Program-made: the position numbers and the translations under genes
Virus record (IMG/VR): IMGVR_UViG_3300020182_000084
Location: 1 to 37,264 of that record
Source of the DNA: a virus
DNA: 37,264 nt
Direction: 5' to 3' (one strand)
In this document: positions 1-17,866 of the stretch, piece by piece
Position numbering within the stretch: position 1 is the first letter of the stretch
Layout: each line of letters opens with the position of its first letter
Notes under the pieces: generated by a model
Databases searched by the model: none
Told to the model about the DNA's origin: nothing
What the model saw: only the letters and a program-made list of their open reading frames with translations

Positions 1-39
1 AAGCCAAGCTATTTTGCAAATTAGGGGTGAGTAAAATTT

Positions 40-528: not shown

Positions 529-540
529 TTTATTTTCTTA

Positions 541-556
541 TTTTATTATAAATATT
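541..556 (-). promoter_or_regulatory. Candidate late-promoter motif upstream of gp19
   Basis: The sense strand reads AATATTTATAATAAAA in the 42-bp gap between the gp18 stop and the gp19 start. The same motif recurs before about a dozen other late genes in this window. Promoter function is inferred. Confidence 0.5.
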
Positions 557-570
557 CGGTTTTTTTCTTT

Positions 571-2925: not shown

Positions 2926-2949
2926 TTTGTTATATTATTTTTAATATTG

Positions 2950-2965
2950 TTTTATTATAAATATT
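2950..2965 (-). promoter_or_regulatory. Candidate late-promoter motif upstream of gp18
   Basis: The sense strand reads AATATTTATAATAAAA, 25 bp before the gp18 ATG. It is identical to the copy in front of gp19. Promoter function is inferred from recurrence. Confidence 0.5.
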
Positions 2966-2983
2966 AGGAAGAGATTCAAAAAC

Positions 2984-3238
2984 TTATTCTGTTGTAGTAA
3001 ATTCCCCAGATTCTAAATCAATGTTTCCATCCCCATATTTTTCTTGTAATTCTTTAGCCGTTTTATTAGTTTTTTCTTGTAAATCACCTAGTTTATCCAA
3101 AACAGATGCTCTTTGGCCTTCTAATATTGCCCTATTAATGTCAACTTGTCCTAATTCAAAAGTAATTGAATTTTGTTGTTGTTGATAACCTTTAAGAATT
3201 TCTAATTCTTCTTTTGATAACTTAATTTTTTTACTCAT
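2984..3238 (-). CDS. Small coiled-coil protein of unknown function
   Basis: An 84-aa highly charged protein, MSKKIKLSKEELEILKGYQQ at its N-terminus, predicted to be almost entirely helical. Heptad-like spacing of Leu/Ile runs through residues 8-65, with an acidic tail (GDGNIDLESGEFTTTE). It has no signal peptide or membrane segment. Small proteins of this kind are common in the structural regions of marine T4-like phages, but I know of no established function. It stands alone between the glycan cassette and gp18. The A-rich leader (AAATAAATAAAAA before ATG) supports the start, and a one-base variant of the late motif lies upstream. A structural or chaperone role is only a guess. Confidence 0.7.
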   Translation of the reverse strand: MSKKIKLSKEELEILKGYQQQQNSITFELGQVDINRAILEGQRASVLDKLGDLQEKTNKTAKELQEKYGDGNIDLESGEFTTTE

Positions 3239-3270: not shown

Positions 3271-4242
3271 TTATTGAAAATCTATAGTAGCAAAAATAGA
3301 TTTATGATATTTTTCTGTTAAATCGTAATATTTGTCTTTTACTATATATCCAATTTTTGTTATTGTTTCTGGGAGTTCTAGACACACATTTGTTCCTTCA
3401 ATTGCCGTTTCTAAAGAATTCACTACTAATTTTAATTCTGAGGTATTATTATCATAAACAATTATTCTTGGTGTCCAATCTTCTGTATGTATCCTTTCAT
3501 GTGTGTCAGAGTTTTGAAAAAATATTTTAAAATTTTCATCATTACTAAAATTAAATAGACCATCTGTGTTTTCAAATGATATTTGATCCCAAATGGGTTC
3601 TATGTGAGTAAGATATTCAAAGTTTTTAATTAATTGCTCCCAATATTCTTCTGCATCTCTAAATTTCCCATCCTTTTTCCATGGGTGTTGATCACTCATA
3701 TAATACTTTTTATTAATTATAGGTAATAAGGATTTTAAATTTTCTTTTGATAAGACATTTAACATAAAACTCGGGAATCTATAACCTATATCTTGTAATC
3801 TTAAATCCCTTACTTTAGATACTAAAAAAGGAACAGGGTTGTTTAAATCATGAATAATGTTATCCGTTAATTTAACGTCATAATTAATAAAACTAAAATA
3901 ATCATAATCAAGTGATATTCCTAAATTCCCAGCTAATAATATTTGATTAAATGCCGTCCAACCATAATCATCTAATATATTTTGTAGTTTAATTTTTTTA
4001 TCTTTAAATTTTAAGTTTCTCCAAAATACCATTCCCCTATAAGGGTATGTAATTGTTGGGTTGCTTTTATCATATATAAAATAATCAACTTTATTTTGTA
4101 TGGAATTTGATACAGGGATATGAGATAATACCATTATATCAAACCCTTCGGATTTGATTTTATCTATATTTTTATTTAATGTCTTTTTTTTAATATCATT
4201 ATCACAATGACACATTATTATTACTAAATTTTTATTTTTCAT
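3271..4242 (-). CDS. Putative GT-A fold glycosyltransferase
   Basis: Probably transfers a sugar from a nucleotide donor. The N-terminus (LVIIMCHCDND, then IMVLSHIPVSNSIQNKVDYF at about residues 36-55) is the pattern of a GT2-like family found in bacterial and phage glycan clusters. The segment around residues 114-125 (DYFSFINYDVKL) takes the place of the usual metal-binding DxD region but has only one clear Asp, so the catalytic assignment is uncertain. The C-terminal ~90 residues look like a separate beta-rich domain. The gene overlaps the end of the 1247-aa enzyme gene by 11 bp, so the two are translationally linked and probably act on the same glycan. Last gene of the cassette. Confidence 0.68.
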   Translation of the reverse strand: MKNKNLVIIMCHCDNDIKKKTLNKNIDKIKSEGFDIMVLSHIPVSNSIQNKVDYFIYDKSNPTITYPYRGMVFWRNLKFKDKKIKLQNILDDYGWTAFNQILLAGNLGISLDYDYFSFINYDVKLTDNIIHDLNNPVPFLVSKVRDLRLQDIGYRFPSFMLNVLSKENLKSLLPIINKKYYMSDQHPWKKDGKFRDAEEYWEQLIKNFEYLTHIEPIWDQISFENTDGLFNFSNDENFKIFFQNSDTHERIHTEDWTPRIIVYDNNTSELKLVVNSLETAIEGTNVCLELPETITKIGYIVKDKYYDLTEKYHKSIFATIDFQ

Positions 4243-7200
4243 AACATGCTATATAGTTATTTTTATTTTTATTTTCTTCATACTTTTCTAAAGACTCGTA
4301 TTCTATATAATTAGTATTATCATTATTACTTTTAAACCAATCCCCTTTATTATTTAATATTTGGTTAATAATAGATTGTTCAGACTTATATAATGTAAGT
4401 AAATTTTTCTTAGTATCCACAATATTTTTATCTAGTTTAGCACTGGATTTTCCAAATACATATAATATGTCTTCTAAAATAATTTTATCAACATACTCTT
4501 TAATAAAATTAAACACAGCTTTATGTTGTGGGTGTCCATATTCACCTATAGGGTTATGTGTTACTATTTTTTCCCATTGTCTATTTAATAATATAGATTC
4601 AATATCGTATCTTTCAGGTGGATTATGTAAATCATCTTTATGATCAAACATTTCCCAAGACCCCACATTTAATTTTGTCATTACTTGTTCAAATTCTTTA
4701 CTTCTAATTTTATTTGATTTATTAGTAAGACAAATAACTTTATATTCCGGACCATGTTTTATTAATTCCGCGCCACCAAATATTAATTCATCATCAGGAT
4801 GAGATACTACCATTAATTTTTTTATTTGGTGATCTTGATACATTAAATCTAAAGTTTTACTATTTTTAGGAACAACTGATGGGTCGGGACCATGTACAAA
4901 ATAAGGTTCTTTGTTTGTTATATCAAACATAACATCAAATCCTTTATCTAATGTATTTTGATCTACAACAACTTTTTCTTTAGGGGAATAATAATTATTC
5001 CATGTAATAGGTAAATAATTAGTTTTATTTTCTTTCCAAAGTAAGGCATTAGTCACTCTTTCTTCTGAGAATGCATTATCGTCGGCAAATATTTGAAGGT
5101 TTTGGGTATTTAATTGTTTATTTAAGTCTAAACATCTTTGAAAAAATGATTCCGAATCTTTATTATAAAAATAAAAACCAGTTGCTATAATAACACTATT
5201 TGGGTTTCTTTTAATATTTAAAATATTAGATACTTCAGCTCCATAATGTCCTTCTAATTTTATGTTTTTATATTTTCTCCAATGAACCATATCTTCATCA
5301 AAATATCTCATAAATAAGGGGTAATCCTTTAAATTTAAAAGATATTTTAAAGAACCATCAATATTTTCGGTAGCAAAAGCATCACCATCTATCCAAGCAA
5401 AGTTTTTATATTCAGTTTTTAAAGAATCTATACTAGTTAAATACTTAGCAAAATATATAGAATAGTCTTTGTCTATCAAATCAAATTCCGTATTAATATA
5501 TCTTATGGGTTTAGGATCAAAGTTAATTCTTTTATTTATTACATTAGGTAAATTAATTTTAGAATCACAATTAAACCCATATACTATTAGTTTATATTTT
5601 GAATGTTTTAATAAACTTTTTGCCAAAACTTCTATCATAGATAGATATTTTTCATCTCCTCCTGTTACCCAAACAAATTCATAATTTTCTTTAGGTTCTA
5701 ATAAGTTTAAACATTCTAAATAAACCTGATCTACTGTAATTGATTTTTGACATATATGTTGTTTTGGGGTTCCTTCATTTTTAGGACACCAATCCCAATT
5801 ACCTGGATCAAATGTAAAATCTTTATTAACCCAACAATTATTACATACAGTATTATTTTCTACTTTAGTTAAATTATTTGTAAATTCGTAACCAAATGGA
5901 ATGAAATTATTAACCATTAAAGTTGGTTTATTTAAAGCCCAATTTGCCCATGATAAACCAGATCCTAAACCAATAAATAATTCTGCGTGGTAAAGGTAGT
6001 TAAAAGTTTTTTCCCAATTAAGTTTATTTTTATTTATTATATTAGTTCCCGAAAATCCCTCATAGGATAAATTAACTACTTTATACCCTTTTTTATGTAA
6101 TTTTTTAGCTAAATTTCTCCACCTATCATGAGGCCATTCTTTTAACCCCGAGGTTGCTCTAGGACCTATACAGATATATTTTCCTTTAATTGGTCTTTTA
6201 CCTATTTTAAAATCTACTCCATGGTTAATTTCTTTATAAGGAAGACCTAAAGCATCTGTTGCGGTTTGGATTAGAGGAATTGTGTTTACTTGGTTTTTAT
6301 TTTTTATACCTTTATCCCATTTTCCATTGGTTTTAAACCACCCTATTTTATAATGAGCGTATGAAGAAATATCTTTGTTAGGTTCTATAAATAATATATC
6401 TTTATATTCTGGGTTGTTAGCAAACCACTCATTATGGAAAGTACTAACTACAACTTTACAGTTATGTTTTCTTTGAAATTCTAAAACTTGAGGAGTCCAT
6501 GCTAATGTATCTCCTATAGATTTTGAATCTAATGATATTTTAACTATTCTATTGGTTACATCAAAAGTATGAATTATTTCCCCATTTACTTTAATAACCC
6601 AAGGGATATAGTATTCATGGTTACATTTAGTCCACATATTATTTTTAATAGTACTAGAATGTATTACTTTATTAGTATCAGAATTTATAAATTCTACAAA
6701 GTATTCTTCCTTATTAGAACCAAATACTTCTAACTTAACTCCTTGGTTAAAACTAAGTTCAATTTTGTTTTTAGGTGGGTTTTTTATAAAAGAATTGATT
6801 TCTTTATTAGCTATTTCAGCCATATTTTCCCAAGTAAACTTTTTTCTTAATTCTTTAGATTCTTCTAAAGCTATTTTTTTATGGTAATCGTAATTATCAT
6901 AAGCATCTCTCATTACTTCCTTAAGATGATTAAAATCTGGGACGTAAAATTCCCCTGATAGCTCTGATTGTGAGTATGTGCTGTATTCTCCTCTAATAGC
7001 GGGTTGTGTGCCTATTATATCTACAGGTAATCCTTTACCTTCAGCAAATTCTAGTTGTGCACTACAATTAGAATAAATAGAAGGTGTACCACAAGCCATA
7101 GCTTCTATTAAAGGCAAGTTCCACCCTTCAGATCGAGCACAAGATAAAAATACATGACCTTTTTGGAGGTATTTTATATATTCTTCTCTGGTAGGAAAAT

Positions 7201-7975
7201 GTTTTATTTTAATTCTTGGGTCTATTAAATTATAATGTTTTAACCTTTTTTCAGTTGTTTCAAATCCATCTTTAGCGAACATATTATCTATAGATATAAT
7301 TAAATCTACAGGTTCATCTTTATCAAATTCTTTTAAAAAACTTTCAATTATTTCTTTTGTTGATTTTCTATAATCCCATCTACCAAAATGGATAAATTTA
7401 AATCTTCCATCATCATATTCGGGTAAAGTAGATTTAGAATTAGGTTTAAAAATTTCCCCATCGACCGCTTCAGGAACTACTTTAATTTTGCTTTCAGGTA
7501 TTCCCTGCAATATGTTACAGTCTTTTTGCCATTGAGAGGGTACCCATATTTGATCAAATTCTTTTATTCGATTGTAAAAATTCTTAGGATATTCTGTTGT
7601 TTCCCATACAAGATAAGCAATTTTAGGCCCATCATATGTCTGGTAGAAATAATGGTGGTTTACTTCTGCTAAAACTATATTTAAATTGTGGTTAAAATTA
7701 TTAGGGTAATTCTTATAAATTTCTGTATCATTTAAAGTTTTATCATTTTTAAATGAAGTTTGTGATGATAAGAGTTTTTTATCTAAATCTAATATATAAG
7801 GTTCTTCATTAAAGGGTTCATCTTTTATACCATTCCAATATTTAGGAACAGTAAAGTTTCTAATTTTTAAAGGGTAATGTTTTGATAGCTTTCTAAAAAA
7901 ATCACGTGAATGGTTATTAAAACCCGTTGTTCCTATATAACAACTAGAAACTAAAATTTTAGGTGAATCTGACAT
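4232..7975 (-). CDS. Four-module glycan enzyme: GT4 + TibC-like heptosyltransferase + GT-A + PIG-L deacetylase
   Basis: One 1247-aa polypeptide with four recognisable modules. Residues 1-400: GT-B/GT4 glycosyltransferase, with FIHFGRWDYRKS (194-205) and the EX7E motif in SEGWNLPLIEAMACG (E283, E291). Residues ~405-760: a GT9-like domain resembling the autotransporter O-heptosyltransferases TibC/Aah. It has SLDSKSIGDTLAW (481-493), GPRATSGLKEWP (604-615) and a four-Cys finger, C711-x2-C714-W, C730-P and C742, of the type that binds metal in TibC. Residues ~765-1048: GT-A module with a D863-G-D865 metal site. Residues ~1051-1247: PIG-L N-acetylglucosamine deacetylase-like, with HPDDE at H1059 and HPQH at H1148/H1151. 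The gene starts 1 bp after the GT9-like gene ends and overlaps the next GT by 11 bp. Substrates cannot be read from sequence; sequential sugar transfer and deacetylation by one megaenzyme is inference. No frameshift or internal stop is seen. Confidence 0.85.
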   Translation of the reverse strand: MSDSPKILVSSCYIGTTGFNNHSRDFFRKLSKHYPLKIRNFTVPKYWNGIKDEPFNEEPYILDLDKKLLSSQTSFKNDKTLNDTEIYKNYPNNFNHNLNIVLAEVNHHYFYQTYDGPKIAYLVWETTEYPKNFYNRIKEFDQIWVPSQWQKDCNILQGIPESKIKVVPEAVDGEIFKPNSKSTLPEYDDGRFKFIHFGRWDYRKSTKEIIESFLKEFDKDEPVDLIISIDNMFAKDGFETTEKRLKHYNLIDPRIKIKHFPTREEYIKYLQKGHVFLSCARSEGWNLPLIEAMACGTPSIYSNCSAQLEFAEGKGLPVDIIGTQPAIRGEYSTYSQSELSGEFYVPDFNHLKEVMRDAYDNYDYHKKIALEESKELRKKFTWENMAEIANKEINSFIKNPPKNKIELSFNQGVKLEVFGSNKEEYFVEFINSDTNKVIHSSTIKNNMWTKCNHEYYIPWVIKVNGEIIHTFDVTNRIVKISLDSKSIGDTLAWTPQVLEFQRKHNCKVVVSTFHNEWFANNPEYKDILFIEPNKDISSYAHYKIGWFKTNGKWDKGIKNKNQVNTIPLIQTATDALGLPYKEINHGVDFKIGKRPIKGKYICIGPRATSGLKEWPHDRWRNLAKKLHKKGYKVVNLSYEGFSGTNIINKNKLNWEKTFNYLYHAELFIGLGSGLSWANWALNKPTLMVNNFIPFGYEFTNNLTKVENNTVCNNCWVNKDFTFDPGNWDWCPKNEGTPKQHICQKSITVDQVYLECLNLLEPKENYEFVWVTGGDEKYLSMIEVLAKSLLKHSKYKLIVYGFNCDSKINLPNVINKRINFDPKPIRYINTEFDLIDKDYSIYFAKYLTSIDSLKTEYKNFAWIDGDAFATENIDGSLKYLLNLKDYPLFMRYFDEDMVHWRKYKNIKLEGHYGAEVSNILNIKRNPNSVIIATGFYFYNKDSESFFQRCLDLNKQLNTQNLQIFADDNAFSEERVTNALLWKENKTNYLPITWNNYYSPKEKVVVDQNTLDKGFDVMFDITNKEPYFVHGPDPSVVPKNSKTLDLMYQDHQIKKLMVVSHPDDELIFGGAELIKHGPEYKVICLTNKSNKIRSKEFEQVMTKLNVGSWEMFDHKDDLHNPPERYDIESILLNRQWEKIVTHNPIGEYGHPQHKAVFNFIKEYVDKIILEDILYVFGKSSAKLDKNIVDTKKNLLTLYKSEQSIINQILNNKGDWFKSNNDNTNYIEYESLEKYEENKNKNNYIACYEK

Positions 7976-8854
7976 TTATTGTTTGTTTAATGATGCAGTT
8001 ATTTTGTTTATATCAAATATCTCATTTAAGTCATTATAGGGAAGAGTTTTTATTTCCTCAACTAAACTAAAAGGAGTATAAGATACATTATGCAAAGGGA
8101 TGTCTTTTGTATAAGGGTTTGCTTTAATATTATTATGGAAGTTATAACCAAATATTTCTGGTTTAGTATCTACCCAACATACTGTAGATTTTAGATTTAA
8201 TGCCCTTGCCATATGTTGACTAAAACTATCTATTAATAATCTTTTACTAGATTTTTGAAGGAGGATTGCTATGCTTCGGTATCCATCTAAAGCTTGTAAA
8301 CTGTCGGGGTATGTAATTTGATCTTCTCTTTTAATATGAATTATAGTATAATCCTGTTTGTAATAATCAATTAATTCTTTTACTACAATTGGGGGTATAT
8401 CTCTAGTCCATGAATATTGTTGAGATACACCAGGAGGTCCTCCATTTGGTTGAATAGCCATAATAGGTTTATCTGTAGAGTAGTATGGAGAAAAATAATC
8501 TATTTCAGGTTGTGATAAGTAAAGTTGTGGTTGTTCATTATTATATCTTAACCCAAAAAGTTCACACCAAGTTTTTAATAATGAAACAGGTTTATTAGTA
8601 ATAAAATCAGATGTTTTATAAGGTTCAGACGCAAATATTTTACATTTTTGGTCTTTAATATACTTTAGATATAACCCATTTGCTTGGTTGATATCATAAG
8701 TTTCATGTATATGAGGATTGTTTAAAAAGACGTCAGTATAGCCGGTTACTACTATTAGTTTTGCGTTTTTATAACGTGTTTTAATGGCAATTACTACAGC
8801 TGTTGCCATGATAGACTTACCAAGTCCACCTTCAATTTGAAAGATTATATTCAT
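7976..8854 (-). CDS. GT9-like (ADP-heptose-type) glycosyltransferase
   Basis: A 292-aa GT-B-type protein. The N-terminal EGGLGKSIMATAVV (8-21) is the glycine-rich loop of GT9/heptosyltransferase-like proteins. Residues 133-141 (AIQPNGGPP) and LLIDSFSQHMARAL (206-219; D209, S210, H214) match the family's nucleotide-sugar-binding DSxxxH block. It lacks clear membrane segments and is probably cytoplasmic. First gene of an apparent three-gene unit with the 1247-aa and 323-aa enzymes (1-bp junction downstream). A terminator-like hairpin and a sense-strand TATAAATA lie just upstream. The donor is unknown; ADP-heptose is suggested by family resemblance only. Confidence 0.72.
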   Translation of the reverse strand: MNIIFQIEGGLGKSIMATAVVIAIKTRYKNAKLIVVTGYTDVFLNNPHIHETYDINQANGLYLKYIKDQKCKIFASEPYKTSDFITNKPVSLLKTWCELFGLRYNNEQPQLYLSQPEIDYFSPYYSTDKPIMAIQPNGGPPGVSQQYSWTRDIPPIVVKELIDYYKQDYTIIHIKREDQITYPDSLQALDGYRSIAILLQKSSKRLLIDSFSQHMARALNLKSTVCWVDTKPEIFGYNFHNNIKANPYTKDIPLHNVSYTPFSLVEEIKTLPYNDLNEIFDINKITASLNKQ

Positions 8855-8881
8855 TTATAACTTAATTTATTTATAACTTAA
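8853..8881 (-). promoter_or_regulatory. Two 13-bp direct repeats with sense-strand TATAAATA
   Basis: The 13-mer ATTTATAACTTAA (plus strand) occurs at 8853-8865 and again at 8869-8881, 16 bp apart. On the coding strand the pair reads TTAAGTTATAAAT twice and creates a T4-late-type TATAAATA at 8875-8868, 14 bp before the ATG at 8854. The first repeat overlaps the start codon. It lies directly after a terminator-like hairpin and may be the promoter or operator of the three-gene GT unit. Confidence 0.4.
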
Positions 8882-8888
8882 ATATACG

Positions 8889-8916
8889 AAAAAAATTTAG
8901 TATTTCCTAACTAAAT
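8889..8916 (-). terminator. Terminator-like hairpin after the 103-aa gene
   Basis: On the minus strand ATTTAGT (8916-8910) and ACTAAAT (8901-8895) form a 7-bp stem with an 8-nt loop, followed by a run of T (to about 8889). The stem is AT-rich, so termination would be weak, but its position between two transcription units fits. Confidence 0.45.
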
Positions 8917-8930
8917 CGTATTTTTTATTA

Positions 8931-9242
8931 TTAATTCTCCCAAGGAAAACCAGTACCATTAATAGCAGGAGGAGTGGATATCATATTAGCTATTGAAGCT
9001 GAATTTTCTTGTTCTATAAGAGCTGTATCAACTAGAGATGTAATCCAACTTAAAACATTTTCTTGAGTTAGGTTTTCAAATTCAATAAAACCTGGGGTAT
9101 CTATTGATCCTGTTACTTCTATCTCCCCATTATATCTTTCTCCAACTTCTTCATGAAGAGAATCAACTATGAATGAAATTCTATTTATTATTCCAGTACT
9201 TATTTCTCTTTCAAGTTCTGTAATTCTATAATTATGTACCAT
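8931..9242 (-). CDS. Small protein ending in PWEN, possibly structural
   Basis: A 103-aa protein with no signal peptide or membrane segment. It begins MVHNYRITELEREISTGI, has a beta-rich centre (ISFIVDSLHEE, YNGEIEVTGSIDTPGF), then an acidic helix with Trp (LTQENVLSWITSLVDTALIEQ) and ends GTGFPWEN. The overall plan (beta strands, an ENV-x-x-W helix, a final Pro-Trp) recalls small hypothetical proteins found among structural genes of cyanomyoviruses and other marine T4-like phages. I know of no proven function. It has its own upstream late motif and a terminator-like hairpin downstream, so it appears to be a separate unit interrupting the glycan cassette. Confidence 0.65.
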   Translation of the reverse strand: MVHNYRITELEREISTGIINRISFIVDSLHEEVGERYNGEIEVTGSIDTPGFIEFENLTQENVLSWITSLVDTALIEQENSASIANMISTPPAINGTGFPWEN

Positions 9243-9253
9243 GTTTATTGTTA

Positions 9254-9269
9254 TTTTGTTATAAATATA
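9254..9269 (-). promoter_or_regulatory. Candidate late-promoter motif upstream of the 103-aa gene
   Basis: The sense strand reads ATATATTTATAACAAAA, ending 12 bp before the ATG at 9242. It matches the motif seen before gp13, gp18, gp19, gp20 and others. Confidence 0.45.
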
Positions 9270-9279
9270 TAATTTTTAT

Positions 9280-9846
9280 TTAATGTATTGGTTTTATCCA
9301 ACTATCATCAAGGTATGTTTTAAATGGTTCTTGAAATGCTTCATTTACCGCACGTACTACACCAGGCCATTCTTTTTGGTAATCGTGTCCACCTATTAAT
9401 TGTTTAGTTTTGGGTGTGTATAATTTTATATCTTTTTTTACCGATTCGTAATCATGGGCACCATCTATATAAATAAAATCAAAGTAACCATCTGGAAAGA
9501 TGTTTGATATATTGTAACTATATTCTTTGTGGTGAGTGATATTACTAAAATGGCGAGTATTAAGTTTAAATTCTTCTTTTACATTATCCCATGTTTCGTT
9601 AAATACCAAATTAGATTCTTCTTTTTCTTCGTGAGGGTCTATACAATGAATTTCACTAAATATTCCTAACGAGGCAAACATAAAAGTAGATTCACCTTTA
9701 TATGACCCAATTTCTAACATTTTTAAATTAGATTTATTGTTTAATGTAGAATATATATCATACATTAATTGGTTTAAACCTAAATAAAACCTATTACCCC
9801 ACATATTATTCCATTCAGGATTAGGGTTAAATCTTAATGAACTCAT
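9280..9846 (-). CDS. Class I SAM-dependent methyltransferase (Methyltransf_24 type)
   Basis: A 188-aa Rossmann-fold methyltransferase. SAM motif I is MLEIGSYKGESTFMFAS (43-59), the acidic motif II end is IHCIDPHEE (67-75), and the later FDFIYIDGAHDYESVKKD (122-139) is characteristic of Methyltransf_24-like enzymes that often act on sugars or small hydroxylated substrates. In this context O-methylation of a glycan is plausible but unproven. It starts 1 bp after the dioxygenase gene ends (on the coding strand), so it belongs to the unit running down from the giant fibre. A degenerate copy of this domain is fused to the GT25 protein two genes upstream. Confidence 0.82.
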   Translation of the reverse strand: MSSLRFNPNPEWNNMWGNRFYLGLNQLMYDIYSTLNNKSNLKMLEIGSYKGESTFMFASLGIFSEIHCIDPHEEKEESNLVFNETWDNVKEEFKLNTRHFSNITHHKEYSYNISNIFPDGYFDFIYIDGAHDYESVKKDIKLYTPKTKQLIGGHDYQKEWPGVVRAVNEAFQEPFKTYLDDSWIKPIH

Positions 9847-9847
9847 A

Positions 9848-10567
9848 TTATCCTACTAAGTTTCTATCACACCAATTGTTTTTTGATGATGCTACGTTAT
9901 TATTATTCGATTCTATGTATTCCCAGGCTAAACTAAACCGAGTATTATTTGAAGTATTTGGATAACACCCATGTATCATATTAATATTAAAAAACACAGC
10001 ATAAGGTGCATCTAATTCTAAGTCTAATATCCAATTAGGATTTAATTTTGTTTCATCTATCCATTGTATTCCTTCTATATGGGATATAACATCATGTGGT
10101 ATTATTCCTATTTTATGAGATCCAGGTATAATTCTTAAACATCCATTTTCTTTATTTGTATTTTGAAAATATAGAGCACAACTAATTATATTATCAGGAT
10201 CACCATTAAAATAAAAGTTATCTTGGTGTAAAAATGTTGATACTCCTACTTTGGGTTTCATTGGAAAAAATTTAGATATATAAACATCTAATGTTTCTTC
10301 TGTATTTATTAATTGTTTGGCTGTATTTACAAGGATTTTATTCTTTGCTATTTTTAAAAACTCAGGTTCATACTCGCATGCCCCTTCTATTTTATTTAGG
10401 TTAGTAGGACTATTTAATCTATAGTTACCTTCATGTTCCGTTAAATTAAGAGAATATTTATAGTGTTTTTGGGATATTTTTAATAGATCCTTTAATTCAT
10501 CTTCGGATAAAAAGTCTTTTATTATTACATATCCTAACTCATTAAATTTATTTATATTAAAGTTCAT
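9848..10567 (-). CDS. PhyH-family Fe(II)/2-oxoglutarate dioxygenase
   Basis: A 239-aa phytanoyl-CoA-dioxygenase-like oxygenase. The N-terminus GYVIIKDFLSEDELKDL (12-28) is the usual PhyH opening. The iron facial triad is visible as H114-x-D116 in FLHQDNFYF and distal H199 in MIHGCYPNTS. R210, 11 residues later, suits 2-oxoglutarate binding. RIIPGSHKIG (145-154) is the family's conserved loop. It would use O2 and 2-oxoglutarate to hydroxylate a substrate, here perhaps a sugar or a fibre residue. It overlaps the GT25 gene by 11 bp and is followed 1 bp later by a methyltransferase, which suggests sequential hydroxylation and methylation. Confidence 0.87.
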   Translation of the reverse strand: MNFNINKFNELGYVIIKDFLSEDELKDLLKISQKHYKYSLNLTEHEGNYRLNSPTNLNKIEGACEYEPEFLKIAKNKILVNTAKQLINTEETLDVYISKFFPMKPKVGVSTFLHQDNFYFNGDPDNIISCALYFQNTNKENGCLRIIPGSHKIGIIPHDVISHIEGIQWIDETKLNPNWILDLELDAPYAVFFNINMIHGCYPNTSNNTRFSLAWEYIESNNNNVASSKNNWCDRNLVG

Positions 10568-11897
10568 AATTTTCTTTTTTAATTACCCAACTATTATCAA
10601 ATATTATAGCTTTAGGGGGAGCGTCTTGTATATTGTTACCACCTATAAAACCCTTTTTAGAAATTTTAGGAAAATACCTTTTAATTAAAGGTTTAATATT
10701 TTCTTGTTTTCTATTATTAATATAAAGAAATAATAAATCATCAAAAGATTCAGAAATTAAAGTGGGGTCTTGATTTATATGGTTGATATTTTTATGGAAA
10801 TAATTGTTATTATTAAATCCTATTTTTATATCTTCCCAAGTTAAATTATGTTTAATATTAAATTCATCTTCTCCCTTAAGGGGATCAATAGCATATATAT
10901 TAGAAAATAAACCACTAGAACCAAAATAAAAAGTATTTTCTCCTAAATGGCTGTTTATTTCTACCATTTTTCCTCTTTGATTCAAATTTTTAGATAAAAA
11001 ATCTATTAATCTAATTATACTAAAAAAGTTAAGGTTTAGTTTATCCTTGCTAGAAAAATTTTGAATCCCAAATTTAGGTTCTGATAAGACAATTTCTGTG
11101 TATTCATCTACTTCTTTTGGATGTTTTATATATTTAGCTATGTTTTTATTTAAGATATTACCATTTTCATCAAAAGAAATACCAACCCTTCCCCCTCCTT
11201 TTCTAAATTCATTGAAAAAGGTGTCTGAATCAGATACACTTGAATGGGAAAGATCGGATATTTGGAGAAAAATACTATTTTTTAATGTAAAAGAATTATG
11301 AGTATTATAAAATTGTTCTAGGTACACATCCGCTGCGTTTTTAATAGGTAAGACCTTATTAGTTAAAACTTTGAGCATATGATTAGTTGCAATATAAGAA
11401 TGGGCTCCTTCCCAATTTGAACTAGGGGTTGGGAGAGTTAAATATTTTCCAACATTTAAACCCTCAGTATTTTGATTTTTTTTACCTAAATGAATTAAAT
11501 CGTAATTAGAATTTTCAATTTCATTAATAATTTTAGAGTATTCATCAGTAAAAGTATTGTCGGTATTTAGTATTGGTTTATGTAAAATAATATCATCTTC
11601 TAAAAATAAAGCATTTTTTACACCATCAGATAAAGCCTGATCCCATGCCTTTTTATGGGATAGAGCACAAGCAAATACTCCCATAGTTACCATACCATTA
11701 GGATCAAAAAAAGAGGAATTTAATATTTTATCTTTTAACAATTGTTCTTGGTTAAGGTCTTTACCATCTATTGCTTCTATAAAAGTAAAATCAATATTAG
11801 GAAAATTATCTATTAAAGTTTTTTTTCTGTCTAGTCTGCGTTTTAGGTTTATAACATAGATTTTATCAAAACCAAGTGTAGAGTATTTTGTATTCAT
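10557..11897 (-). CDS. GT25 glycosyltransferase fused to a degenerate methyltransferase domain
   Basis: A 446-aa two-domain protein. Residues ~10-225 are GT25 (LOS/procollagen-type glycosyltransferase): DKIYVINLKRRLDRK (11-25), FIEAIDGKDL (39-48), GVFACALSHKKAWDQAL (73-89) and the metal-binding LEDD (99-102). Residues ~308-441 align with the neighbouring 188-aa methyltransferase: MVEINSHLGENTFYFGSSGL, YAIDPL, NLTWEDIK, FIGGNN and DNSWVIK all have counterparts. The SAM-binding Gly in motif I is Asn315, and the IDGAHDY block has become INNRKQE (393-399), so this domain is probably inactive. It lies 1 bp after the 349-aa GT gene and overlaps the dioxygenase gene by 11 bp. The GT25 call is firm; the substrate is unknown. 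Confidence 0.85.
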   Translation of the reverse strand: MNTKYSTLGFDKIYVINLKRRLDRKKTLIDNFPNIDFTFIEAIDGKDLNQEQLLKDKILNSSFFDPNGMVTMGVFACALSHKKAWDQALSDGVKNALFLEDDIILHKPILNTDNTFTDEYSKIINEIENSNYDLIHLGKKNQNTEGLNVGKYLTLPTPSSNWEGAHSYIATNHMLKVLTNKVLPIKNAADVYLEQFYNTHNSFTLKNSIFLQISDLSHSSVSDSDTFFNEFRKGGGRVGISFDENGNILNKNIAKYIKHPKEVDEYTEIVLSEPKFGIQNFSSKDKLNLNFFSIIRLIDFLSKNLNQRGKMVEINSHLGENTFYFGSSGLFSNIYAIDPLKGEDEFNIKHNLTWEDIKIGFNNNNYFHKNINHINQDPTLISESFDDLLFLYINNRKQENIKPLIKRYFPKISKKGFIGGNNIQDAPPKAIIFDNSWVIKKENYEL

Positions 11898-11898
11898 A

Positions 11899-12948
11899 TT
11901 ATAAGGAATCTAAGAAAAAATGGTATTTTTCTTTTAAAAAATTATCATTTAAAAACTTTATATTATTAACTTCTTGGTACAATATATCCTTTAAATCACT
12001 ATCAGAAGTATTTTTAATTTGTATAATAGTTTTTGTTATTTCATTGTAATTACACTTAGATATAAAGGGGTAATTTGGTAAAAATTCGGATATTGGCAAA
12101 TTTGGGGATATTATAGGTACCATACCATTTACCATACTATATAATGTTTGTAAATCAAAAGAATTATAAAGTCCTATATTAGCATATATATGGTTAGTTT
12201 TATAAAAATTACTGAAGTTTCTTAATTGACCTTTAAAACTGATATTAGAATGTAATGCCGTTGCATTATTTATTAAAGGTTGAGTTGTAAATGGACTTCT
12301 TCCATGTTTCCCATATATTTTCAAATTATAGTCAGATAAAGAGGCTAATGAAGGAATTAAATGCCCAAACCCATTATTAAATGAAGGTATACCATTAAAT
12401 CCTATATTATTATTAGGTTTAAAATAGGAAGGATTAAAGGTAATAGATTTTTCTTTTCCTAAAGAAGGGGGAATTATTGTTACTTTTTTATTACTTTGGA
12501 TTTCGTAATAGTTTGTAAAAAGATTAAAGTCTAAATTACTATAAAAAATTAAGGCATCAGCATAATCGTTGTATAATGTATTTTGGGAATTTTTTGATAA
12601 AGAGTTATATGATGAATCAGATTTAAAATTATAATGTTTTAAAATATCAACATCTATATTTTTATGTATTTCAGGAATAGTATCAATTACAAAAATTTTA
12701 GGGATAGAAATATTATCTAAAAAGGGAGTAAGGGATAGTAAAGAAGTTACTTTAAAATCTAATAATACTAAAACATGAGTATAGTTTTTGTTTATACTAT
12801 ATGATAAATTTACATCAGATATTGAATATATATCTTTTTGTTGAAGGTTTAATGTAGAAATTAAATTATCTAAAATAAATAATTCATTCACATACCCCCT
12901 ATCAATATAGTTTGTAATTATACATATCTTCATAGGGGGAATATACAA
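11899..12948 (-). CDS. Putative GT-B glycosyltransferase, degenerate
   Basis: A 349-aa protein with the outline of a GT4-like GT-B enzyme. It has an N-terminal Rossmann start (MKICIITNYIDRGYVNELF), a mid-protein linker VTIIPPSLGKEKS (about 156-168), then a second-domain start NNIGFNGIPSFNNGFGHLIP in place of the usual GRL-x-x-KG. Residues near 255-290 (YANIGLYNSFDLQTLYSMVN, then GMVPIISPNLP) align with the donor-binding EX7E region, but both Glu are missing. It may therefore be a divergent, non-retaining or non-catalytic partner. First gene of the cassette, only 7 bp downstream of the giant fibre gene, and 1 bp from the GT25 gene. An ATG five codons downstream (MKIC) could be the true start. 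Confidence 0.68.
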   Translation of the reverse strand: MYIPPMKICIITNYIDRGYVNELFILDNLISTLNLQQKDIYSISDVNLSYSINKNYTHVLVLLDFKVTSLLSLTPFLDNISIPKIFVIDTIPEIHKNIDVDILKHYNFKSDSSYNSLSKNSQNTLYNDYADALIFYSNLDFNLFTNYYEIQSNKKVTIIPPSLGKEKSITFNPSYFKPNNNIGFNGIPSFNNGFGHLIPSLASLSDYNLKIYGKHGRSPFTTQPLINNATALHSNISFKGQLRNFSNFYKTNHIYANIGLYNSFDLQTLYSMVNGMVPIISPNLPISEFLPNYPFISKCNYNEITKTIIQIKNTSDSDLKDILYQEVNNIKFLNDNFLKEKYHFFLDSL

Positions 12949-12955
12949 AAATATT

Positions 12956-15900
12956 TTAGATATCCCTACTTATTTTTAATTCTAATTCTTCTACTTTAAC
13001 TGTTAAGTCTTTAATTGCTTCAATTAATAAAGGTACAATTTTTTCATAGTTAACGGCTTTATATCCACTATCTCTAGTTGTAACAGCTTCTGGTAGTATT
13101 GCTTCTATTTCTTGTGCAATTACTCCTACATCTTTACCTGTATTACCGTGTATAGTTTTTGTTTCTTCTTTAGTTAATTCTTTCCAATCAAATGTATTAC
13201 CACTTACTCCAATTACTTTACATAAAGAATTTTCTATAGGTTTAATATTACATTTTAATCTTTTATCAGAAGTAGCATAAGCTACAATATCATTTGTTGC
13301 ATCAATTCTACCTGTAGTTGTATTACAAGCATTTCCAGTACCCCCTACATTTAAATGATTTCTAACATGAGAACATTGAGTATAAAAGGTACAATTTTGA
13401 TTTGAAGATAAGTTATAACCAGCAAGAAAGGAATAATCATGACCATTAATGTAATTGCTATACCCACCTAATATAGCACTACAATTAGCACCATTACATA
13501 TACAATTTAGTCTACCTCCTAAGATAGCAGAGGTGTTAGAATTATAAATTTTATTCGTAGTACCTCCAACAATAGAACTCTTAGGTGAACTTACACAAAT
13601 TACATTGAAATCTCCTGCACCTATAAAACTACAATTTGTACCTGTTTGACAGATGCAGTTGTTACATCCTGCAACTATAGCACTATTACCAACACAAGTA
13701 TTAATTTTATTGGCACCTCCTGCTCCTATAAAATTTCCTGAACAAGCAGTATTATTATTGACTATACAATTTACTGATCCTCCTGCTATTACACTAGTTT
13801 TACCACTGGATATATAATTTCTACAACCACCACCAATAAAACTTTCAGTTGAACTTGAACCTGTGTTTTTTAATCCACCAGCTATAGAAAATCTAGTAGC
13901 TGAATTTGTTTGGCTACTTCCTATAGTTATTTGCATAGCCCTAATTTGAGCTAATGCATCTCCATCACCCTCTGTAAAGACATGACATTCACCAGGAGTA
14001 GCATAAACGTTTTGGGCACCATAACCAGCTAAATTATTTAAATCATAAGATATGTTTCCAAAACTATCTCCATCATAATCAAGTATGAATTTCTGGCCTT
14101 CATTAATGGCTATATTTTGGGAATCGTTATGTAATATGTTACCATCAAATGTTAAACTACCTTCAGCATTTAATTGGCCTTGTGTACCTGTTGAAGTTGT
14201 AACTCTGTTGTTACCTAAATTTGTTATAGTAGCTGTTCCGCTTGTTCCTGAAGAACCTGAAGAACCTGAGTTACCTGATGTTCCTGAAGAACCTGAAGAA
14301 CCTGAGTTACCACTTGATCCTGAACTACCTGAAGTACCAGAGTTACCGCTTGTTCCTGATGAACCACTAGAACCTGAGTTACCACTTGATCCTGAACTAC
14401 CTGAAGTACCAGAGTTACCGCTTGTTCCTGATGAACCACTAGAACCACTTGTACCACTTGATCCTGAACTACCTGAAGTACCAGAGTTACCGCTTGTTCC
14501 TGATGAACCACTAGAACCACTTGTACCACTTGATCCTGATGAACCACTTGAACCTGAGTTACCACTTGATCCTGAACTACCTGAAGTACCAGAGTTACCG
14601 CTTGTTCCTGATGAACCACTAGAACCTGAGGTTCCTGATGAACCACTAGAACCTGATGTTCCTGGGGTACCTGTTCCACCACTTGTTCCTGAAGAACCTG
14701 AACTACCCGATGAACCTGAACTACCGGATGAACCCGAAGTTCCTGAATTTCCTGATGAACCAGATGTACCACTTGATCCAGATGAACCTGAAGTTCCAGA
14801 TGAACCACTTGATCCTGAGTTTCCTGAAGAACCACTTGTTCCTGAAGATCCTGATGATCCACTTGTTCCTGAAGAACCTGATGAACCAGATGAACCACTT
14901 GAGCCTGATGTACCACTTGAGCCTGAACTACCACTTGAGCCTGAACTACCACTTGAGCCTGAACTACCTGAGGTTCCACTTGAAGCGGCATTTGTTTCAT
15001 ATCCTACATTACCACTTGAATCTACAACTAATACATCATTACTAGTTGTTATATTAGGTAAATTAGGGGCATTTAAAGTACCATCAATCATTGTTAAACC
15101 TGAACCACTTACAGATAAGATTGGAACACCTGATATATCAGATGCTGCAAATACTATCCCTGTCAAATCATCTGTTACTGAAAATAATTGACCTTGAGAT
15201 CCTTGTACATCTAAAATTGTGCTACCTGATCCTGATACTGTAAGTTTAGTACCATCAAATGTAAAATTAGCTTCAGCATTTAATGCACCTTGAGTTCCTG
15301 TTGATGTAGTTACTCTATTGTTACCTAAATTTGTTATTGTTGCTGTACCACTTGTTCCTGATGAACCAGATGTTCCTGATGAACCACTTGAACCTGAGGA
15401 ACCACTTGAACCTGAAGTTCCAGATGAACCACTTGAACCTGAAGAGCCTGAAGAGCCTGAAGAACCAGATGAACCACTTGAACCAGATGTTCCTGAGGAA
15501 CCTGAAGAGCCTGAATTTCCTGATGAACCTGATGTACCTGATGATCCACTTGAACCTGAAGTTCCAGATGAACCACTTGATCCTGAGTTTCCTGAAGAAC
15601 CACTTGTTCCTGAAGAACCACTTGAACCTGAAGAACCTGAAGTACCACTATTACCTGAACTACCTGATGAACCCGAAGTTCCACTTGAACCAGATGTTCC
15701 TGATGTACCATCATCTCCTCTATCACCTACTAAGGCGAAAGAAACAATTACATCTTCATTATTAGTAAATGGGGATGCAGCTGATGATGCTTGTTCACTT
15801 ATGTTTATTGTCCAATATACACCTAAGTCTGTTAGGTTTGATATTGAAAACAATATAAAATTTTCTGGAGCGAATTTATCCGCTATTCTCATATGACCCT

Positions 15901-17866
15901 TTACTGCTGATGTAGAGGCATCAATACTCTCTAAAAATGACTGTATATTATCACCATCTTCTGTAGTCTGACTAATAATGGATAATGTAGATGCGTTTTG
16001 TGTAGTGTTATTTAATCTTATATCTCCATTACCTGGATCAGCAGTACCTGTTGCTGTGTCAAATGTATAATTAAAAGTAGCACCACCAAAATTACCATCT
16101 TGTCCTGATGTACCACTTGACCCAGATGAACCTGAAGTTCCCGATGAACCTGAAGTACCACTTGAGCCTGAAGAACCACTTGAGCCTGAACTACCTGAAG
16201 TACCAGATGACCCTGATGAGCCACTTGTTCCTGATGAACCTGATGAGCCTGAAGTTCCTGATGTACCACTTGATCCTGTATTTCCTGAAGTTCCAGATGA
16301 ACCACTTGATCCTGAGTTTCCTGAAGAACCTGAAGAACCTGAAGTACCAGAGTTACCGCTTGTTCCTGATGAACCCGATGAGCCGGAGTTACCACTTGTT
16401 CCAGAGGAACCTGATGAACCATCTGAACCTGAAGTTCCTGAAGTACCAGATGACCCTGAAGAACCACTTGTGCCTGATGAGCCTGAAGAACCACTTGTTC
16501 CAGGATTACCTTGGACACCACTTGTTCCTGATGAACCACTTGAACCACTTGTTCCTGATGAACCTGAAGAACCGTTTGAACCTGAAGTTCCTGAAGTTCC
16601 TGAAGAACCGGTATTACCTGAAGTACCTGATGTACCGGATGAACCAGATGAACCTGAGTTACCACTTGTTCCTGAAGAACCAGATGAACCATCTGAACCT
16701 GAAGTTCCTGAAGTTCCGGATGAACCTGAACTACCTGATGTTCCTGAAGTTCCTGAAGAACCTGTATTACCTGAAGTTCCTGAAGAACCACTTGATCCTG
16801 ATGAACCTGATGTACCACTTGTTCCTGGGTTACCTTGGACACCACTTGTTCCTGATGAACCACTAGAACCACTTGTTCCTGAAGAACCTGAACTACCTGA
16901 TGTTCCTGAAGTTCCCGAAGAACCAGTATTACCTGAAGTTCCTGAAGATCCACTTGAGCCTGATGTACCTGATGAGCCCGAACTTCCTGAAGTACCTGAT
17001 GAGCCTGATGAACCTGAAGTGCCTGAAGAGCCTGAGCTACCGCTTGTACCTGATGAACCTGAGCTACCTTTATCACCTATAAGTTCAATAGCCATAAAGG
17101 TAGCATCGCTATTACCTACATTATTCCAACCACTTTTATCAATATGAGTGATATCTAATGTTCTCCAACCACCATTATCTGTTTGGGCAGTAACATATGC
17201 TGAATCATAATATATTTGATTTGATTCTAATCTAAATGTTATAACAGATTTATTATTATTTGTAGAATCTGTTAGAGTACCTAATATTGGGTCTATACCT
17301 AATCCATCTAAATCAGTCTCACTAATATAAACTTCAGTAGCTGCAGCCGGGTCAGCGGCGTTAAATCTAAATTTACCTGAGCCTGGGTCTGCTGATGTTG
17401 TAGATGTAGAGTATTCTATACGGAATCCATAAGTGGAAACACCTGAAGTACCAGATGTACCTGAACTACCTGATGAACCACTTGTTCCTGAAGAACCAGA
17501 TGAACCATCTGAACCTGAAGTTCCTGATGTACCCGAAGAACCTGAAGAACCTGATGTGCCTGAAGAACCAGATGAACCATCTGAACCTGAAGTACCTGAT
17601 GTACCGGATGAACCAGATGAACCACTTGTTCCTGAAGAACCACTAGAACCACTTGAACCTGATGAGCCACTTGAACCTGAACTACCATTTGAACCAGAAG
17701 TACCAGAAGTACCACTAGATGCAGCATTTTCTCTGGTACCTACAGTACCATCACTATTTATTACAAGCGTTGTGTTTTCAGATCCTTGAGTTGAAAGACC
17801 TGTTAATTTAATTTCATTTAACTCAGCATTACTACCACTAAGTATTACTTTTTTCCAATTTGGCAT
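12956..17866 (-). CDS. Giant collagen-like fibre with C-terminal S74 chaperone domain
   Basis: A 1636-aa virion fibre. Residues 1-50 form an N-terminal module (PNWKKVILSGSNAEL) shared with the 409-aa protein. Four blocks of Gly-x-x triplets (GSSGTS-type, at about 51-142, 266-588, 717-838 and 960-1210) alternate with globular modules. Two of these (about 145-265 and 590-716) are related, and two carry NLGNNRVTTSTGTQG (about 841 and 1213). About 1340-1510 is a YadA-head-like beta-helical repeat (GG-x-x-N-x-I units) with roughly 15 Cys. The end is a peptidase S74 intramolecular chaperone, with SDKRLK containing the expected Ser1533/Lys1538 pair for self-cleavage. By position next to gp13-gp15 genes it could be a neck/whisker, head or tail fibre. 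The repeat blocks contain almost no Lys and very little Pro but dense Ser/Thr. Confidence 0.9.
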   Translation of the reverse strand: MPNWKKVILSGSNAELNEIKLTGLSTQGSENTTLVINSDGTVGTRENAASSGTSGTSGSNGSSGSSGSSGSSGSSGSSGTSGSSGSSGTSGTSGSDGSSGSSGTSGSSGSSGTSGTSGSDGSSGSSGTSGSSGSSGTSGTSGVSTYGFRIEYSTSTTSADPGSGKFRFNAADPAAATEVYISETDLDGLGIDPILGTLTDSTNNNKSVITFRLESNQIYYDSAYVTAQTDNGGWRTLDITHIDKSGWNNVGNSDATFMAIELIGDKGSSGSSGTSGSSGSSGTSGSSGSSGTSGSSGSSGTSGSSGSSGTSGNTGSSGTSGTSGSSGSSGTSGSSGSSGTSGVQGNPGTSGTSGSSGSSGSSGTSGNTGSSGTSGTSGSSGSSGTSGTSGSDGSSGSSGTSGNSGSSGSSGTSGTSGNTGSSGTSGTSGSNGSSGSSGTSGSSGSSGTSGVQGNPGTSGSSGSSGTSGSSGSSGTSGTSGSDGSSGSSGTSGNSGSSGSSGTSGNSGTSGSSGSSGNSGSSGSSGTSGNTGSSGTSGTSGSSGSSGTSGSSGSSGTSGSSGSSGSSGSSGTSGSSGTSGSSGSSGTSGQDGNFGGATFNYTFDTATGTADPGNGDIRLNNTTQNASTLSIISQTTEDGDNIQSFLESIDASTSAVKGHMRIADKFAPENFILFSISNLTDLGVYWTINISEQASSAASPFTNNEDVIVSFALVGDRGDDGTSGTSGSSGTSGSSGSSGNSGTSGSSGSSGSSGTSGSSGNSGSSGSSGTSGSSGSSGTSGSSGNSGSSGSSGTSGSSGSSGSSGSSGSSGSSGSSGTSGSSGSSGSSGSSGTSGSSGTSGTATITNLGNNRVTTSTGTQGALNAEANFTFDGTKLTVSGSGSTILDVQGSQGQLFSVTDDLTGIVFAASDISGVPILSVSGSGLTMIDGTLNAPNLPNITTSNDVLVVDSSGNVGYETNAASSGTSGSSGSSGSSGSSGSSGSSGTSGSSGSSGSSGSSGTSGSSGSSGTSGSSGNSGSSGSSGTSGSSGSSGTSGSSGNSGTSGSSGSSGSSGSSGSSGTSGGTGTPGTSGSSGSSGTSGSSGSSGTSGNSGTSGSSGSSGNSGSSGSSGSSGTSGSSGSSGTSGNSGTSGSSGSSGTSGSSGSSGTSGNSGTSGSSGSSGNSGSSGSSGTSGNSGTSGSSGSSGNSGSSGSSGTSGNSGSSGSSGTSGTATITNLGNNRVTTSTGTQGQLNAEGSLTFDGNILHNDSQNIAINEGQKFILDYDGDSFGNISYDLNNLAGYGAQNVYATPGECHVFTEGDGDALAQIRAMQITIGSSQTNSATRFSIAGGLKNTGSSSTESFIGGGCRNYISSGKTSVIAGGSVNCIVNNNTACSGNFIGAGGANKINTCVGNSAIVAGCNNCICQTGTNCSFIGAGDFNVICVSSPKSSIVGGTTNKIYNSNTSAILGGRLNCICNGANCSAILGGYSNYINGHDYSFLAGYNLSSNQNCTFYTQCSHVRNHLNVGGTGNACNTTTGRIDATNDIVAYATSDKRLKCNIKPIENSLCKVIGVSGNTFDWKELTKEETKTIHGNTGKDVGVIAQEIEAILPEAVTTRDSGYKAVNYEKIVPLLIEAIKDLTVKVEELELKISRDI
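12990..13290 (-). other. S74 intramolecular chaperone domain of the giant fibre
   Basis: Codes for about residues 1526-1626. The sequence SDKRLK, then DVGVIAQEIEAILPEAV and YEKIVPLLIEAIKDL, is the standard endosialidase-type chaperone signature. The Ser-Lys spacing of five residues matches the known self-cleavage dyad. The domain trimerises the fibre and is then normally released, cutting just before Ser1533 (family knowledge). Confidence 0.88.
14309..14626 (-). repeat. Four identical 66-bp repeat copies inside the giant fibre gene
   Basis: A 66-bp block beginning ACCACTTGATCCTGAACTAC (plus strand) occurs without mismatch at 14309-14374, 14381-14446, 14453-14518 and 14561-14626. Spacing is 72, 72 and 108 bp, all multiples of 9 and 36. 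It encodes GSSGTSGNSGTSGSSG-type triplets. Identity at DNA level, including synonymous positions, points to recent duplication or gene conversion rather than selection on protein alone. Confidence 0.85.

Follow-up and report, generated by a model that had tools for sequence, protein, structure and literature searches.

A BAHT-containing gene cassette beside a serine-rich collagen-like tail fibre of a T4-like virus: a likely virion O-glycosylation system

The virus record IMGVR_UViG_3300020182_000084 (IMG/VR; positions 1 to 37,264, the whole of which was analysed and is called the window below) is a 37,264-base stretch with a guanine-plus-cytosine (GC) content of 31%. Its minus strand encodes terminase, portal, protease, capsid, PhoH and neck proteins, two tail fibres rich in Gly-X-Y triplets, a cassette of glycan-type genes, tail sheath and tail tube, and this gene set is the structural cluster of a T4-like myovirus. 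Among relatives of the sheath, the protein of Flavobacterium phage immuto is listed first (54% identity over 73% of the query), and this, together with the low GC, hints at a host among the Bacteroidota. The cassette lies inside the tail cluster, 3' of a giant fibre gene and on the same strand, and consists of seven glycan-type genes and one DUF7936 gene. A first-pass annotation, made from the letters alone, had suggested that these enzymes glycosylate the virus's own fibre; the genes that it listed were all found in their places, with neck proteins, sheath and tube around the cassette on the same strand, and its count and order of seven glycan genes stood, but the 103-amino-acid DUF7936 gene (8931–9242) had been overlooked. 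We consider it likely that the cassette is a virion-protein O-glycosylation system, in which an enzyme of the BAHT type (that of TibC and AAH, known from autotransporters) acts on Ser of the fibre triplets and the other enzymes elaborate the sugar. This reading is supported by BAHT homology, by the residues kept, by co-occurrence in both directions and by a similar pairing in bacteria.

The giant fibre gene (12956–17866, minus strand) encodes a collagen-like tail fibre of 1636 amino acids with a C-terminal S74 chaperone (Pfam Collagen, 350 bits in 12 stretches; Peptidase_S74, 5.9e-14; PHROG tail fibre), which is the proposed glycan acceptor. It holds 268 Gly-X-Y triplets (GSS 144, GTS 82) in four unbroken runs of 31, 111, 43 and 83 triplets, that is, the long uninterrupted repeats of collagen-like proteins (PF01391). 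Shuffling the protein 1000 times gave no run longer than 9, against the 111 observed, and the dense Ser/Thr triplets described earlier are thus far above shuffle expectation. The X positions are occupied by Ser in 150 and Thr in 85 cases, the Y positions by Ser in 244 and Thr in 5, and the triplets together contain 484 Ser/Thr (394 of them Ser), 3 Pro and 1 Lys. The S74 chaperone points to a trimeric fibre, and triplets without proline are poor triple-helix formers. Directly upstream, a shorter triplet fibre of 409 amino acids (18385–19614, minus strand; 64 triplets, PHROG tail fibre matches) is a possible second acceptor.

The enzyme proposed to act on these triplets is part of a protein of 1247 amino acids (4232–7975, minus strand), which had been described as a four-module glycosyltransferase (GT) and deacetylase and was resolved with Pfam, TIGR04414, the TibC structure and motifs into a GT4 module (approx. 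amino acids 1–400), a BAHT/TibC module (403–753), a part without Pfam match (approx. 765–1045, with a DGD motif at amino acid 863) and a PIG-L deacetylase (1054–1161, with HPDDE and HxxH motifs). The BAHT module (5690–6775, minus strand) matches TIGR04414 (hepto_Aah_TibC) with 195.8 bits (E 1e-57) over model positions 10–369 of 374, as compared with 24 bits for the lipopolysaccharide heptosyltransferase I profile, and its amino acids 406–751 align with residues 25–379 of TibC (PDB 4rap; E 2.5e-30), including the N-terminal barrel and the catalytic lobes. Its phage relatives reach 379.7 bits on TIGR04414 and lie above the cut-off of that model in 14 of the 17 matched records of one set and in 27 of the 28 found in triplet-selected contigs. 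The neighbours of BAHT in the window are collagen-like tail fibres, glycan-type enzymes and tail genes, and not an autotransporter gene.

The TibC study (PMC4358343) names D110 as candidate catalytic base and T226, K230, R286 and W305 as donor-binding residues, with Cys 339, 342, 358 and 370 forming an iron finger required for the dodecamer; TibC and AAH modify Ser within repeats, and in the peptides tested with TibC serines, not threonines, were modified. Alignment of the window module to TibC revealed that D489 (= TibC D110), T608, K612 and W676 are kept, as are the four cysteines (711, 714, 730 and 742), which have the TibC spacing C-x2-C-x15-C-x11-C, with Thr657 at the position of Arg286. 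D110, K230, W305 and all four iron-finger cysteines are identical in 26/26 aligned phage modules, and the T226 position holds T in 20 and S in 6 of them. The analogy to TibC drawn in the first-pass annotation has thus become one of true homology with most key residues kept, and, judged by its sequence, the BAHT-type module should be active on protein Ser.

Viral contigs were scanned for codon stretches encoding 14 Gly-[Ser/Thr]-[Ser/Thr] triplets in a row, which gave at least 120 stretches, and the 80 contigs among the matches listed were subjected to a whole-record search for BAHT. It was found in 28/80 (17/40 and 11/40 in the two halves), with 19 hits among the 41 listed contigs of at least 40 kb and 14 among the 19 of at least 80 kb. 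None of 50 control contigs with Ser/Thr-poor triplets, obtained by a comparable scan, contained BAHT (0/50 versus 28/80; Fisher p 2.6e-7), and the contrast persisted with at least 50 triplets required on both sides (26/65 versus 0/26, p 5e-5) and at GC below 0.5 (28/78 versus 0/19, p 0.0012). Random low-GC contigs of at least 20 kb (n=31, median GC 0.35) yielded no BAHT and three Collagen matches, as compared with BAHT in 25/63 triplet contigs of that length (p 9e-6). In the reverse direction, triplets were present in 14 of the 29 listed BAHT contigs of at least 20 kb (11/18 and 2/10 from two record sets, and L682/L040 by its open reading frames, ORFs) versus 3/31 random contigs (p 0.0013, or 0.006 if one near-identical trio is counted once). 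BAHT and triplets also lie close together, at a median distance of 8.6 kb in 17 contigs of at least 60 kb, versus 37 kb under random placement (p 0.00025), and the two matches share a strand in 20/28 contigs. BAHT-positive contigs of at least 40 kb were richer in triplets per fetched ORF (median 164 versus 106.5, p 0.017). BAHT thus co-occurs specifically with Ser/Thr-rich triplets.

A similar pairing was observed among bacteria. Triplet ORFs, sought in flanks of up to 8 kb around the best 80 bacterial BAHT relatives, were detected at 16 loci and were Ser/Thr-rich in each; all 16 fell within the first 19 loci, whose BAHT is nearest to the phage ones, and none among the remaining 61 listed, a split that follows list rank and was noticed after the fact, so that a tree is the better statement. 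In a quick BAHT tree (130 rows, no bootstrap, midpoint root) all 16 triplet-linked bacterial rows fell on one side with 41 of the 50 from phages and 3 further bacterial ones, the 61 bacterial and 9 phage rows left over formed the other side, and the triplet-linkage label needed 3 changes among bacteria. Several of the bacterial triplet ORFs are a few hundred bases from BAHT (approx. 0.2 kb in Methylobacter luteus), and three of six such proteins read by eye resemble short exported proteins that carry GTSGTSGTSG-type runs. Some ‘bacterial’ loci with triplets may in fact belong to phage contigs within metagenome-assembled genomes; one locus listed as bacterial (L479) shares 74% identity with the window module. 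A long repeat ORF that appears autotransporter-like by eye lies nearby in about half of the 12 triplet-free bacterial loci inspected.

Within the T4-like group, 61 loci with both a neck and a sheath gene were compared (duplicates kept, window included). The neck-to-sheath interval held BAHT together with a triplet fibre in 3, BAHT alone in 19, neither in 39 and triplets alone in none. Two of the 19 belong to records longer than 100 kb with the same gene order (L129 and L131), which hold triplet ORFs elsewhere. Where records of at least 48 kb were examined for both (n=16), both were found in 6, neither in 9, triplets only in 1 (L069) and BAHT only in none (p 0.0009; 0.002 without the record found through BAHT). 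Most T4-like loci showing these genes have a small gene, sheath and tube downstream of BAHT, at a distance of 0 to several genes; L001 and L031–L034 depart from the usual BAHT-sheath-tube arrangement. L001 is the record of an isolate, Microcystis phage Mel-JY01 (PP395634.1), and its triplet fibre ORF (2–3052) runs off the record start. This ORF is not annotated there as one gene, about half of it being covered by a minus-strand hypothetical coding sequence, and the BAHT gene, which encodes a GT4-BAHT protein, is annotated as methyltransferase FkbM.

A number of observations weigh against the proposed system. The co-occurrence was positive in both directions with controls, but it is not the strict one that the first-pass annotation had looked for: 22 of the 41 Ser/Thr-triplet contigs of at least 40 kb are without BAHT, and many BAHT loci lack the genes for GT25, dioxygenase and methyltransferase. 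Conversely, 15 of the 29 listed BAHT contigs of at least 20 kb have no triplets, one of them of 53.7 kb, and in the T4-like group 19 of 61 complete neck-to-sheath intervals contain BAHT and no triplet fibre, 17 of these 19 being on contig fragments of 8–36 kb without any triplet. The 53.7 kb contig (L696/G197), which was selected by its BAHT, has no Collagen match, and no Ser/Thr-rich ORF was seen across the 35 kb inspected, from before the capsid gene to well beyond the tube gene; unless its fibre sits outside these 35 kb, it is a real counter-case to the pairing. A cassette without any triplet protein, which the earlier annotation had named as evidence against itself, was thus encountered, on contig fragments only (17 of 8–36 kb and others up to 53.7 kb). 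In addition, L059 and L060 have cassette genes of GT9-fold and DUF7936 type but neither BAHT nor triplets, BAHT and triplet matches are on opposite strands in 8/28 contigs, and in two BAHT-positive contigs (L214 and L251) the fetched locus has as its largest triplet ORF one that is poor in Ser/Thr. The Ser/Thr-poor control has a higher GC (locus median 0.55 versus 0.38) and shorter tracts (median 51 versus 130 triplets), and at GC below 0.40 the contrast (18/53 versus 0/4) is not significant, with too few controls.

Further points of this kind concern the enzyme. The window module falls 4 bits short of the TIGR04414 equivalog cut-off (200 bits) and is therefore filed as a BAHT homologue working like BAHT rather than as a same-function equivalog, and the exact TibC cysteine spacing is found in only 53 of 68 phage BAHT ORFs. 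TibC Arg286 is Thr657 in the window, and Arg occurs in 9/26 aligned phage modules; since this adenine-contacting residue is replaced, ADP-heptose is unsure as the donor. In the 130-row set Arg286 is kept in 16/50 phage rows (some repeated), 7/16 triplet-linked bacterial rows and 61/64 other bacterial rows, a pattern of loss for which a donor switch is a possible explanation. HldE-like genes, split into one half for the heptose kinase and one for the adenylyltransferase, adjoin the phage BAHT in L029 (2592–4414), and members of the same two gene clusters (C24 and C25) lie near BAHT in L032 and L034. HldE-like genes overall were not enriched with BAHT (7/30 versus 4/20), and a phage-encoded supply of ADP-heptose is for this reason a hint only. 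Finally, a glycan on the fibres is a prediction: gene content, homology, kept catalytic residues and the co-occurrence of BAHT with Ser/Thr triplets are what the data show, and from them we infer that the fibre is modified, from which donor, in what sequence the subsequent reactions run and what the phage gains.

Alternatively, the acceptor of BAHT and its partners might be another virion protein (for example the sheath, the tube or an insert rich in Ser/Thr), with the triplet fibre only sharing the tail cluster. The position of BAHT upstream of the small gene, sheath and tube in most T4-like loci, the 19 intervals and the 53.7 kb contig all favour this explanation, which we nevertheless regard as unlikely: beyond the T4-like group BAHT still tracks Ser/Thr triplets and is unseen with Ser/Thr-poor ones, its bacterial homologues adjoin triplet proteins, and among the 61 intervals with neck and sheath genes 39 have neither partner and none has triplets without BAHT. 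The sheath of the window (571–2925) has a long, variable Gly/Thr-rich insert (approx. amino acids 100–310), which is short or missing in several relatives. As a general acceptor this insert was rejected, as several of the relatives in which it is short or absent are BAHT-positive.

The remaining genes of the cassette are all on the minus strand. Seven bases after the fibre gene, 11899–12948 encodes a putative GT-B glycosyltransferase of 349 amino acids with a TTG start; the GT-B label given to it earlier was not confirmed, as its match to Glyco_trans_1_4 (E 0.08) is below the cut-off and no useful PDB profile match was obtained. After a 1-bp gap follows a GT25 glycosyltransferase with a methyltransferase-like part (10557–11897; PF01755, 2.3e-22), which is overlapped by 11 bp by a PhyH-type Fe(II)/2-oxoglutarate dioxygenase (9848–10567; PF05721, 1.4e-22; HQD motif at amino acids 114–116), and this in turn is separated by 1 bp from an S-adenosylmethionine-dependent methyltransferase (Methyltransf_24, 9280–9846; PF13578, 2.3e-14); these three labels agree with the first reading. 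The DUF7936/phrog_7802 protein (8931–9242, 103 amino acids; Pfam, PHROG) is encoded with gaps of 37 and 76 bp to its cassette neighbours. A GT9-fold glycosyltransferase of 292 amino acids (7976–8854; AlphaFold model, pLDDT 82) abuts the four-module gene, which is overlapped by 11 bp by the last gene, for a putative GT-A-fold glycosyltransferase of 323 amino acids (3271–4242; AlphaFold model, pLDDT 90.6).

PDB profile searches with the genes at 11899, 7976 and 3271 gave nothing useful, the profile of the first consisting of 6 sequences. The protein of 7976–8854, formerly called GT9-like, has no match to a GT9 sequence family, but the best PDB folds for its model are ADP-heptose heptosyltransferase II (1psw, 4.8e-11), the GT9 enzyme 3tov, WaaC and TibC, and the predicted structure thus has the GT-B fold of GT9. 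For 3271–4242 no glycosyltransferase family match was found in Pfam or PHROG, and its model resembles nucleotidyl- and GT-A enzymes (E approx. 2e-5, TM-score up to approx. 0.5), which weakly suggests a GT-A-like enzyme. The best PDB matches of the GT25 protein are human procollagen galactosyltransferase 1 (6e-12) and mimivirus R655; a role on collagen hydroxylysine is unlikely on the fibre, because its triplets hold one Lys. A part of the GT25 protein is approx. 36% identical over 149 amino acids to the neighbouring methyltransferase, and the cultured-phage collection yielded no relative of the GT25 gene at E 1e-5. One PHROG match of the methyltransferase is named DNA methyltransferase. GT25, PhyH, methyltransferase, GT-B and GT9-fold genes are variably present across the BAHT-selected loci, as expected if decorations differ between phages; because the loci were picked for BAHT, they do not demonstrate that BAHT is the most constant part. 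The DUF7936 gene recurs in 16 BAHT loci (window and near-identical copies counted). At L059 (12233–16428) and L060 (15842–20037), two successive tail-sheath genes (787 and 570 amino acids) lie near GT9-fold and DUF7936 genes.

A TATTTATA-type motif on the coding strand precedes the fibre, sheath, tube, portal and DUF7936 genes and looks like a late promoter; we take it to be the reverse complement of the T4 late box. Of its 15 same-orientation matches, 11 are fully intergenic, although intergenic bases make up 2183 of the 37264; these lie at 547, 2956, 9260, 17930, 22769, 23106, 23670, 24545, 31299, 33257 and 36276, in the gaps before the tube, sheath, DUF7936, giant fibre, neck, portal and other genes. 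No such motif of their own was seen in the window scan for the first four genes of the cassette, which, given also their close spacing to the fibre, are probably co-expressed with it.

This arrangement bears on the alternative already offered in the first-pass annotation, namely that the enzymes remodel surface polysaccharide of the host; the target could also be lipopolysaccharide, and the purpose superinfection exclusion or a change of receptor. The GT4, GT25, GT9 and PIG-L families act on lipopolysaccharide, polysaccharide or glycolipids as well, and glycosyltransferases of temperate phages alter host serotypes (PMC12619734). We judge this improbable in view of the near full-length BAHT match (195.8 bits, versus 24 for lipopolysaccharide heptosyltransferase I), of a cassette that begins 7 bp after the fibre with four genes lacking a promoter-like motif, and of the specific linkage of BAHT with Ser/Thr triplets.

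A common cause would be that collagen-like fibres and numerous glycosyltransferases both tend to occur in large aquatic phages, without the fibre being a substrate of these enzymes; both sets of contigs indeed came from one viral collection, with relatedness and GC only partly controlled. We see little room for it, as Ser/Thr-poor triplet contigs of similar size (0/50) and random low-GC contigs (0/31) lack BAHT, BAHT and triplet genes cluster inside large contigs, and the pairing recurs in bacteria, where about half of the 12 triplet-free loci show, by eye, an autotransporter-like repeat ORF instead. Hypermodification of phage DNA, for which one could cite the glucosylated DNA of T-even phages (PMC9614988) and the DNA methyltransferase name of one PHROG match, deserves hardly any weight, since the cassette sits among tail genes, most of its families are of protein or glycan type and the known BAHT substrates are proteins.

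Under the O-glycosylation of fibre triplets that we favour, the BAHT-type module would place the first sugar from a nucleotide donor, ADP-heptose or a relative of it, on Ser (possibly Thr) of the Gly-Ser/Thr-Ser triplets, in the host cytoplasm and before or during fibre assembly. TibC-type enzymes work in the cytosol on repetitive proteins before export, and phage fibres would pose no export problem, because they are made in the cytosol too. The GT4, GT25, GT9-fold and GT-A-like enzymes, the deacetylase, the methyltransferase and the dioxygenase would then extend and decorate the sugar, in combinations that may differ between related phages, and would leave a triplet rod that is coated with sugar and hydrated. 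The phage would probably profit from a more stable fibre, triple-helix-like but nearly free of proline, from shielding against proteases or binding proteins, and from altered adsorption; sugars on Ser/Thr could give proline-poor triplets stability and hydration, as proposed for BclA.

The closest known counterparts are the BAHT enzymes TibC and AAH with the autotransporters TibA and AIDA-I (PMC4358343). They share with the window module near full-length homology, the Asp, Lys and Trp residues and the four-Cys iron finger, and their genes likewise lie near that of a Ser-rich repetitive surface protein. The window enzyme differs in being phage-encoded, in its fusion to GT4, DGD-containing and PIG-L parts, in the loss of Arg286, in its linkage with Gly-X-Y triplets instead of autotransporter repeats and in the additional GT25, dioxygenase and methyltransferase genes. 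Mimivirus, with its L230 lysyl hydroxylase/glucosyltransferase, likewise uses viral enzymes to glycosylate its own low-proline collagen-like proteins, according to PMC9614988; a GT25-type enzyme is common to both, and the window cassette has an Fe(II)/2-oxoglutarate dioxygenase. The mimiviral modification is on hydroxylysine (same source), whereas the window triplets hold one Lys, and modification of the window fibre must therefore be mainly on Ser/Thr. Glycans on phage virion proteins are known from mycobacteriophages (Freeman et al. 2023, via PMC12619734; PMC11256854), where, in the parts of these sources available, they are on capsid and tail tube, not on triplet fibres, and BAHT is not mentioned. 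BclA-type bacterial collagen-like proteins (PMC8968730) are glycosylated and thought to gain hydration; BclA, unlike the window fibre, is a bacterial spore protein. A search of open-access literature, with subscription papers and preprints outside its scope, turned up no paper on BAHT in phages or on its pairing with collagen-like triplets. BAHT chemistry on autotransporters is already known, and the best supported reading, BAHT-like chemistry on collagen-like phage fibres, would be a new twist to it.

Taken more widely, we lean towards the view that a substrate-switched branch of BAHT, present in very different phages and several bacterial groups, O-glycosylates Ser-rich collagen-like triplet proteins, and that many environmental phages build their own ‘glyco-collagen’ tail fibres; the donor may extend beyond ADP-heptose, because the adenine-contacting Arg is often lost. 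Ser/Thr triplet proteins occur in many viral contigs (at least 120 stretches), and BAHT beside such fibres offers a direct and testable answer to the question of what holds together and protects a nearly proline-free triplet rod. If this is true, BAHT enzymes would be extended from autotransporters to collagen-like proteins, the cassette would represent a compact system for producing glycosylated collagen-like rods, and predictions of host range from fibre sequence alone may overlook a sugar coat.

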